6,933 nt of DNA from a bacterium (GTDB lineage: Bacteria; CSSED10-310; JAJRTK01), in contig JAJRTK010000472.1 in the NCBI GenBank assembly GCA_024278345.1, positions 1 to 6,933 on the forward strand, in the 5' to 3' direction. Under the pieces are notes generated by a model. It searched no databases, had not been told where the DNA came from, and saw only the letters and a list, made by a program, of their open reading frames with translations. Below are positions 1,764-4,235 of the stretch, one piece after another; position 1 is the stretch's first letter, and each line of letters begins with the position of its first letter. The translations under genes were made by a program, and so were the position numbers.

Positions 1764-3650
1764 TCAATCGGATGGGGGAAGGGAATGCTCCTTCGCCATG
1801 TCTCGCAAGCGCCGAGCCAGCCAACGATCCGCGGGATCAGCGGAATTCTCCAGCCGAACGGAAGCCGAAACCGTCGCGGCCTTCCCGGGGGCTCCCTCGG
1901 CGAGCAAAATCCGCACAGTTCGCAAAAGTGATTTCGCACCGCCGGCCCGGATCTCGATGAACGCCCTCGCCGACAGCCAAGCAGTCTCCGGTTCTTCTTT
2001 TTTCGAGAGCCTTTTCAGATGCTCCGCCGCCCGGTGGCGGAGCTGAGAATCCGGCGACAGGAGAGCCAACCAGAGCACGGAAACCAGATCCGAGTGAGTC
2101 AGGACAGACATAAGTTCCTTCGTGCCCCCCCGACTTTTCGCGAGAAGAGCCAAAAAGAGTCCCTGCACTTCGTCGGTTTTCCAGATTTTCGGGTCGGCCC
2201 TCAAAGCCACGCCCAGCCAGTGCCCGGCAACCTCGAACTCCCTTTGCCACAACTCGTATCGGGCGATGGCAAAGGCAGCCTTTGCCCCCAGATCGTCGCC
2301 CGACGCCTCAAGGCGAGCAACCTGGTCCCCGAGGCCCGGGCTCCAACCAAGCTCCATAGCCTCGGAAAGACGCCAGGCCAAAACGTCCGCCTCCGCCATA
2401 CCGGGCGCCCGACCGGCACGTTTCAGCACGCGTAACGCCCCCAGACGAAGCAGGGGATCGGGGTGGCTTAGCATGGAAAGCAGCTCCCCCTCCAACCAGC
2501 CCTCCAGTCTCCCGAGGCGCTGCAGCCAAGGTTCTGGCAGCGGGCGGCGGCGGAGGGATGCCACCAGCAAGTCGCCGAGGGAAAAAGCCAAAACCCGGTC
2601 CGGCACAAAGCTCGACAAGGCGGCGGCCAACTGAGGTGCAGCCACTAGATCTCCGCGAATCAGAGCCGCCCGAAGCAACGCCAAGCCCAGCGCCCGGGAG
2701 CGCATCTCCAGAAAAATCGGGGTGAGCGCTCGATCCCACGCGGGTGCTAGAACAGTTGCCAAGTCCGATGCCAGGCGTTCCGCGAGCCACGCGGCCCTTC
2801 CGAATTCGCGGGCGCGAAAAAGAAGCGTAAAGAGTCGGCGGCTCCTCTGGGGCGAGCCGACCCCGAGCTCTTCCACCACTTTCGGCCATTCGACCAACTC
2901 CAACCCCGCATGGGCCAGGCGATAGGCATCGGGCAGCTCCGGCCGCTCCAGGAAAAGCTTGATCAGAAGGGCTCCCAACTGGTCGCGTCGGAGAAGTTCC
3001 GGAGCCTCTTCCATGACCCGCGCCATCTCTATTACTGCCTCTTGGACCTGGCCGGTCTGGTAAGCCAGCTCGCCTGCAAGGAGCCGGAGAGCGACATCGC
3101 CATGGCCACGCTCCCGGAGGCCCTCCACAAGGTCTCGTGCCATTTGATAACGCCCCCGCGCCATCAAGCTTCGAACCCGGCCAGTGACGCGGAGGGCATC
3201 GAACAAGAGAGCCACGGACAAAACAATGAGAACCAGTGCCACCGAAGCGAGAGCTACGCGCTCCTGACGTCCGAGGGTCTCGCCCTCGGCCAGACCCAAA
3301 AGGTGGCGCCAACCGGCTCCAAAGAAACTCCTCATGCTCCTTTTTCCAAGTGTATCTGGAGGAAGGTTCAAGGGAGCGTTTTGCCTTGGCCAGCCGCCAC
3401 TTTCCCCTGGATGCGCCCGCTCCAGGGTGTTGGAAAGAGCCGAGACAAAGAGCTCGGCGGACTGGAACCTTTGGGAAGGATCTTTCGCCAAGGCCTTGAA
3501 AAGAACCCGGATGGTATTTGGATGGAGTCCGCTCTTTTGGTCCTCCCGGGGCTCGGGATCCCGGTAAAGAATGCTATCGAGAAGCTCCTCTTGAGTTTCA
3601 GCGGAAAAAGGATAGACGCCGACGAGCAATCGATAGGCCAACACGCCCAA
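1764..3650 (-). CDS. C-terminal part of interrupted membrane pseudokinase with helical repeats
   Basis: Second part of the frame that begins at 4235. The kinase homology starts directly after the TAA at 3711-3713: codons 3651-3710 encode an activation-segment end with the APE motif (CLAPEQVSG) and the subdomain IX Asp (SDHYALG). The first usable start codon in this piece is TTG at 3650, inside the C-lobe and without a ribosome binding site, so independent translation is doubtful. Counting from that TTG: GVLAYRLLVGVYPF, then ALAKDPSQRF with the conserved subdomain XI Arg near residue 61; kinase homology ends near 75; one membrane helix at about 132-152; TPR-like helices at about 162-218; a long helical region with HEAT/ARM-like units near 391-412 and 529-550; end at 628. 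By analogy with PknB-type proteins the repeats would be outside the cytoplasm. The frame has no further stop, indicating a recent lesion, a sequencing error or recoding. Confidence 0.85.
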   Translation of the reverse strand: MGVLAYRLLVGVYPFSAETQEELLDSILYRDPEPREDQKSGLHPNTIRVLFKALAKDPSQRFQSAELFVSALSNTLERAHPGESGGWPRQNAPLNLPPDTLGKRSMRSFFGAGWRHLLGLAEGETLGRQERVALASVALVLIVLSVALLFDALRVTGRVRSLMARGRYQMARDLVEGLRERGHGDVALRLLAGELAYQTGQVQEAVIEMARVMEEAPELLRRDQLGALLIKLFLERPELPDAYRLAHAGLELVEWPKVVEELGVGSPQRSRRLFTLLFRAREFGRAAWLAERLASDLATVLAPAWDRALTPIFLEMRSRALGLALLRAALIRGDLVAAPQLAAALSSFVPDRVLAFSLGDLLVASLRRRPLPEPWLQRLGRLEGWLEGELLSMLSHPDPLLRLGALRVLKRAGRAPGMAEADVLAWRLSEAMELGWSPGLGDQVARLEASGDDLGAKAAFAIARYELWQREFEVAGHWLGVALRADPKIWKTDEVQGLFLALLAKSRGGTKELMSVLTHSDLVSVLWLALLSPDSQLRHRAAEHLKRLSKKEEPETAWLSARAFIEIRAGGAKSLLRTVRILLAEGAPGKAATVSASVRLENSADPADRWLARRLRDMAKEHSLPPSD

Positions 3651-3710
3651 CGCGTAGTGGTCCGATACTGGTTTTGCTGCCTTGCCGGAGACCTGCTCGG
3701 GAGCCAGGCA

Positions 3711-3713
3711 TTA
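3711..3713 (-). other. In-frame TAA interrupting the kinase-like frame
   Basis: The minus strand reads CAT CCA TAA TGC CTG GCT CCC GAG: His-Pro-stop-Cys-Leu-Ala-Pro-Glu. The upstream and downstream pieces are in the same frame (3713 to 3650 spans exactly 21 codons). The stop falls where related kinases usually have Tyr before xxAPE, so one substitution from TAT or TAC would explain it. Confidence 0.9.
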
Positions 3714-4235
3714 TGGATGGGAAAGCTCTCCCCGCCATTGATCCGCGGCTTCCAAGAGAAGTGGTTCGAGGTCGTAGTCAACTAGAAAGGCTCCTTCTTC
3801 ATCAAGCCAGACGCCCAAGGGAGTGAGCCTTCCATAACTCCAACCTCGTTGGTGAAGGACTTCCAAGGCGGCGGCGATATCTTTGAGGCAGGCAATGGTC
3901 CTTGTGGGCGCCAAACGCTCCCCCGAGTCCGTCAAGACCGATGACAAGCTCCGCCCCACCCGGAAGTCGTGAAACAAAAACAAGAGATCCGCTGTCCGGC
4001 TCAGCCCCAGGACCCTCCGAATCGCCCGATGCTCCAGTTCTCCGGCTTTTCTTTGTCGCGCTAGAAGCCTGCGGAAGAGAGCCGAACGATCATCCAAAGC
4101 GCAGAGGGCCGTGAAGGGGATCGACTGTACCAAGACAGCCTGCCCGGTGAGCAGATCCTCGCCGCGCCAAAAGCCACCCAGACCGGGGAGATCCAGTTTC
4201 TCCCCCAGCTTGTATCGCCCAATCTTGTCGATCAC
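3711..4235 (-). CDS. N-terminal part of interrupted Hanks-type pseudokinase
   Basis: Encodes 174 residues covering the N-lobe and first half of the C-lobe of a Ser/Thr-kinase fold, ending at the TAA in the activation segment. The order of elements is standard: an IGRYKLGEKL start, a degenerate glycine loop (DLPGLGGFWRG, 15-25), a hinge-like region near 84-101, LHQRG before the catalytic loop, and a DFG-like site. Key residues are changed: the VAIK Lys is Gln37 (VLVQ); the helix C Glu aligns with Arg60; HRDLKPSN reads YGRLTPLG (134-141), losing the catalytic Asp, Lys and Asn; DFG reads DYD (153-155). The product would therefore be a pseudokinase, probably a binding or scaffold domain. The start is GTG at 4235 with AGGAG nine bases upstream. 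The gene lies 162 bases after dacB on the same strand. If the stop is real, this piece would be an incomplete fold lacking its membrane anchor. Confidence 0.85.
   Translation of the reverse strand: MIDKIGRYKLGEKLDLPGLGGFWRGEDLLTGQAVLVQSIPFTALCALDDRSALFRRLLARQRKAGELEHRAIRRVLGLSRTADLLFLFHDFRVGRSLSSVLTDSGERLAPTRTIACLKDIAAALEVLHQRGWSYGRLTPLGVWLDEEGAFLVDYDLEPLLLEAADQWRGELSHP

Follow-up and report, generated by a model that had tools for sequence, protein, structure and literature searches.

A single in-frame TAA in a bacterial pseudokinase gene, most probably either a young nonsense allele or an error in the consensus

Introduction

A gene that is open over its whole length except for one TAA, placed in the middle of its kinase homology, raises the question of whether the organism reads through that codon, has lost the gene, or carries the stop only in its assembled sequence. 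The gene considered here lies in a contig (JAJRTK010000472.1) of the bacterial assembly GCA_024278345.1, of the lineage CSSED10-310, and the whole stretch analysed, 6,933 nucleotides long, is called the window below. Its neighbours in the window are genes for a histidine--tRNA ligase, a PBP4-type carboxypeptidase and a GT4-like glycosyltransferase. The source genome is metagenome-assembled, consists of 550 contigs and is 87.9% complete. An in-frame stop in a pseudokinase gene of such a draft genome is an ordinary finding, and the caution for draft genomes is that a lone in-frame stop in one gene tells little before the reads have been checked. We weighed this stop against the coding signal on both of its sides, the kinases of the same genome, the genetic code of the organism and the kinases of other genomes.

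Results

The interrupted gene

On the minus strand, the reading frame opens at a GTG (position 4235) that is preceded 9 nt upstream by a Shine-Dalgarno-like AGGAG, runs into the TAA at 3713-3711, and closes at a TGA (1766-1764). Reading the TAA as a residue yields 823 residues (174 + 1 + 648) with zero further stops, and an earlier note on this DNA, which had described one gene split by one TAA, was right in this respect, there being no second stop in the codons before or after it. The hexamer coding score is 0.279 before the TAA and 0.284 after it, with the other frames at 0.00 or below, and GC3 is 0.644 before versus 0.674 after. Up to the end of the gene, the interrupted frame is also the top-scoring frame of the coding strand, except in two weak 40-codon scoring windows. 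Since the two open reading frames share the same frame and coding signal, and since a kinase match extends across the TAA, they are not paired by chance, and the description of one interrupted gene holds. Of the five genes of the window that had also been claimed to end in TGA, four ORFs could be confirmed (hisS, the C-terminal piece, PBP4 and the glycosyltransferase).

By its sequence, the gene is kinase-like. With the stop read through, residues 66-262 match PF00069 at 49 bits against a gathering score of 31.7, which assigns the protein to the protein kinase fold, and this one match spans residue 175, bearing out the earlier statement that kinase homology continues past the TAA. Taken alone, the C-terminal piece reaches 27.6 bits to PF00069, and the N-terminal piece is without any Pfam match. 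The NCBIfam search returned kinase-domain matches only, all below cut-off (the best being NF033483, residues 6-277, 76 bits), and no named pseudokinase family above its cut-off. In the translation, VLVQ stands for VAxK, so that the Lys of VAIK is replaced by Gln, YGRLTPLG stands for HRDLKPxN, and DYD for DFG. As the usual catalytic residues (the catalytic Lys, the HRD Asp and DFG) are gone, the label of pseudokinase under which the gene had been introduced is a fair name for it. Judged from its translation, the gene product is a predicted catalytically dead Ser/Thr-kinase-like domain followed by a single membrane helix and a C-terminal part that resembles TPR. A similarity search over 60 genomes (the source genome and 59 others) found no ortholog in the 59 others; the similarity seen was confined to the kinase domain, at ~22-34% identity.

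Within the kinase domain, the TAA falls in a well-defined motif. In an alignment with kinases of the same genome, anchored on LAPEQ, it occupies column 163, the x of GTPxY[M/L][A/S]PEQ. In 60 sister kinases this column holds A (15), S (8), L (7), G (6), E (4), D (4) and others, with Tyr in just 1/60, whereas the next column holds Y in 56 and F in 4, and Cys in the interrupted gene. Tyr had been taken as the usual residue at the stop, which would have made a one-substitution change from TAY to TAA a natural origin; neither idea is supported here, the usual Tyr lying one column later and the x column being variable. Because the TAA occupies this variable position, with the Tyr column adjoining it, the ancestral codon is not inferable. 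The sister kinases mostly run through the x column without interruption, and on its consensus sequence the gene therefore qualifies as a pseudogene, having a lesion beside intact relatives.

Table 1. Features of the interrupted gene (positions in the window) and other in-frame stops of the same genome (positions in the locus named)
Feature	Position	Strand	Remark
Whole interrupted gene	1764..4235	minus	pseudokinase domain, predicted membrane helix and TPR-like C-terminal part; 823 codons plus terminal TGA
N-terminal piece	3714..4235	minus	174 codons, GTG start; expected product if UAA terminates
In-frame TAA	3711..3713	minus	variable x of the kinase motif GTPxYMxPEQ; here SHP-stop-CLAPEQ
C-terminal piece	1764..3710	minus	648 codons plus TGA; codon statistics equal to those of the N-terminal piece
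PF00069 match across the stop	3450..4040	minus	catalytic Lys, HRD Asp and DFG Gly absent
Hydrophobic stretch VALVLIVLSVALLF	3186..3254	minus	probable single membrane helix; by eye, bounds approximate
Weak TPR_16 match	3015..3179	minus	residues 353-407, below curated cut-off
Kinase stop, C179	L061:798-800		TAG, YM-stop-PEQ
Kinase stop, C57	L062:9752-9754		TAG, MSPE-stop-V; coding signal also shifts frame ~85 codons past this stop
Kinase stop, C306	L064:8287-8289	minus	TAA, YM-stop-PEQ
ABC ATPase stop, C262	L224:5411-5413		TAG at the Q-loop, MVF-stop-EPMTSLNP; Opp/Dpp-type
Nudix box stop, C101	L131:2689	minus	TAA
ThiF domain stop, C501	L239:12810		TAG
RHS repeat region stop, C159	L172:1577		TAG
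Reg_prop-kinase (propeller-kinase) protein stop, C145	L153:8752		TAG
Stop between two FHA domains, C154	L191:15750		TAG; same frame on both sides; gene boundary or interruption
DUF3352 protein stop, C434	L146:14961		TAG; frame unchanged across it; gene boundary or interruption
GrdB-like protein, C484	L176:616	minus	candidate selenocysteine TGA, PV-stop-PLC
CMD/AhpD-like protein, C353	L121:17354		candidate selenocysteine TGA, CFY-stop

Further in-frame stops elsewhere in the genome

The window gene is not alone in its genome, where at least nine in-frame TAA or TAG codons within 1.72 Mb lie in otherwise open genes that have the support of homology or of repeats (Table 1). A PF00069 search with stops read through gave 129 matches, or ~100 kinase domains, and exactly four of these domains carry a stop, namely the window gene and those in C179, C57 and C306, with one stop each. 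Outside the kinases, a coding-score scan for interruptions over 1.72 of the 6.06 Mb, followed by Pfam, added four stops, those in the Nudix box of C101, the ThiF domain of C501, the RHS repeat region of C159 and the propeller-kinase protein of C145. A candidate at an integrase Tyr (C378, L068:776) was dropped, no integrase domain having been matched. Two further TAG codons, one separating two FHA domains and one within a DUF3352 protein, may each mark either a gene boundary or an interruption. As to the kinase complement itself, ~100 Ser/Thr kinase domains are found in this 6 Mb genome, whose phylum is sparsely sampled (seven same-phylum genomes were returned), and long insertions in some of these domains split the Pfam match.

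Control families in the same genome had an in-frame stop in 1/65 ABC_tran domains, 0/81 Response_reg domains and 0/43 Radical_SAM domains. Per codon, the rates in kinases and in these controls show no clear difference, and a general enrichment of stops in kinases was rejected; given these controls, only the clustering of the kinase stops is odd and not their rate. In five comparison genomes, no internal stop was seen among the kinase domains listed, which number at least about 160.

Clustering of the kinase stops

All four kinase stops fall within seven codons of the GTxxYMxPEQ motif, and those of C179 and C306 share one column, TACATG-TAR-CCGGARCAG. Four one-step nonsense sites drawn at random, with transition weighting, from 75 of the genome's kinase domains were confined to seven or fewer columns with p = 7.75e-5, a value whose true weight is lower because the test was post hoc, devised once the pattern had been seen. 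Random substitutions would be expected to leave several missense changes per nonsense change at the APE Pro and Glu, and here the APE Glu is kept in 60/60 motif-matched kinases and the APE Pro column has zero missense changes among the motifs listed. This lack of a missense excess does not support a hot-spot of random base errors in the motif. Within 1.72 Mb, none of the stops has flanking sequence that recurs beyond 8+8 nt, which makes bridging by repeats inside the genome unlikely, and we rejected assembly bridging of this kind. Beyond the source genome, the pattern TAYATGTWRCCNGARCA was searched over 386 genomes; its two in-frame kinase matches both come from the source genome, and the three matches elsewhere are all non-kinases.

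Discussion

Nature of the lesion

Taken together, these observations lead us to posit, with a probability of roughly 0.87, that the TAA terminates translation normally and that the lesion is either an error of the consensus or a nonsense allele of recent origin, the two being about equally likely. In the first case the assembled base would be wrong; in the second, a nonsense substitution would have arisen lately in the population that was sampled. The earlier note had put a recent nonsense mutation and a sequencing or assembly error forward together, and this pair gives the best fit to a single lesion with unchanged statistics on either side. Our preference rests on the other in-frame TAA and TAG codons of this fragmented genome and on their absence from the comparison kinases. 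With 648 downstream codons at full coding statistics and no second lesion, the lesion has to be young. Should the base be real, translation begun at the GTG would yield a fragment of 174 residues that stops short of the helical half of the kinase C-lobe and also lacks the membrane anchor and the TPR part, and the gene would thus presumably be functionally null.

From the side of the assembly, inflated counts of internal stops are, according to one study, a mark of low coverage, poor assembly or assembler error (PMC11017572), and from the side of populations, bacterial in-frame stops persist mostly as short-lived polymorphism (PMC7918605). The present assembly contains two differing versions of at least one locus, since two contig ends, L160:1-391 and L243:13777-14167 (C500 and C496), share an overlap of 391 bases in which there are 8 mismatches, several of them amino-acid-changing. 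Two points stand against an error or a neutral nonsense mutation: neither model predicts that four kinase stops cluster in seven codons, and either, if random, should have produced far more missense than nonsense changes, yet the APE Pro and Glu are essentially intact. The clustering may be chance, and it is the sole oddity among these observations.

Alternative explanations

Functional low-level readthrough of the UAA, also among the explanations first offered, would make a little full-length protein and mostly the 174-residue fragment, and would keep expression low. The intact coding statistics downstream of the TAA would suit it, as would the stops in the motif of other intact kinases of the genome, but we consider it very unlikely. 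UAA followed by U is a strong termination context in bacteria, and UAAU is the context here; the RNA past the stop is no more structured than shuffled versions (z 0.61), and no suppressor tRNA was found in the loci scanned with ARAGORN. Moreover, no ortholog sharing the stop was found in the 59 other genomes searched, and the four kinases differ in stop codon and exact column. It also counts in favour of readthrough that a published study (PMC7918605) reports bacterial in-frame stops with dN/dS below 1.

Very unlikely, in our estimate, is a lineage-specific process that places or retains stops in the P+1/APE motif of Ser/Thr kinases, that is, a targeted or selected switch-off, which would work by an undescribed mutational process or by regulated readthrough. 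If the clustering holds, it would point to a motif-specific disabling of signalling kinases, a way of silencing them of which we know of no description.

A true split of the gene would give two separately translated proteins, half a kinase from the N-terminal piece and a TM-TPR protein from the rest. The N-terminal piece does have a good start signal, but the break interrupts the C-lobe core of the kinase, and homology to kinases picks up again directly past the stop. The start codons that lie shortly past the stop are all TTG or GTG, and no Shine-Dalgarno-like sequence was seen there, which makes a second independent gene unlikely; an ATG near 3330 has its AAGGAG only 1 nt away and would lose the kinase remnant. 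We regard such a split as highly improbable.

Reassignment of UAA, or of UAA and UAG, to a sense codon, which several in-frame TAA and TAG codons inside conserved genes might suggest and which, for UAA, had been ranked as the least likely reading from the start, is excluded by stop usage, RF1 and the tRNA set: among 533 ORFs of more than 400 codons (1.44 Mb of the genome), TGA ends 290, TAG 154 and TAA 89, RF1 was found in the genome, and ARAGORN scans of the loci with 48 tRNA matches gave no TTA or CTA anticodon, as a UUA- or CUA-reading tRNA would have. The residues expected at the in-frame stops of the genome (Ala/Ser, Gln, Glu and Tyr) also fit no single change, and TAA works as a normal stop codon here. 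Pyrrolysine was rejected because no pyrrolysyl-tRNA synthetase (PylS) scored over the cut-off and the codon in the window is TAA; selenocysteine at the window stop was rejected too, for SelB is encoded (over cut-off), but UAA is no Sec codon. Two candidate selenocysteine TGA codons lie elsewhere in the genome (Table 1). For one tRNA-like gene of 73 nt (C257, L074:2872-2944, minus strand), ARAGORN gave no anticodon.

Comparison with known systems

With a lesion that is most probably a nonsense allele or a consensus error, the gene can be set beside three known kinds of system. Polymorphic in-frame stops of prokaryotes (PMC7918605) likewise leave intact coding statistics past the stop and are probably short-lived, as this one would be; in contrast to those cases, no ortholog carrying this stop was found in the 59 other genomes searched. 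Ser/Thr pseudokinases of bacteria in which a membrane helix follows at the C-terminal side (PMC12599244) have lost their catalytic motifs, as has the protein predicted here, which, unlike them, carries a TPR-like C-terminal part. The third kind is that of pseudogenes with internal stops, real or spurious, in draft bacterial assemblies (PMC11017572), which, in the accessible part of that study, likewise show one stop in an otherwise intact frame within a fragmented assembly holding several such stops; unlike those pseudogenes, as they are described there, the stops of this genome cluster in a kinase motif.
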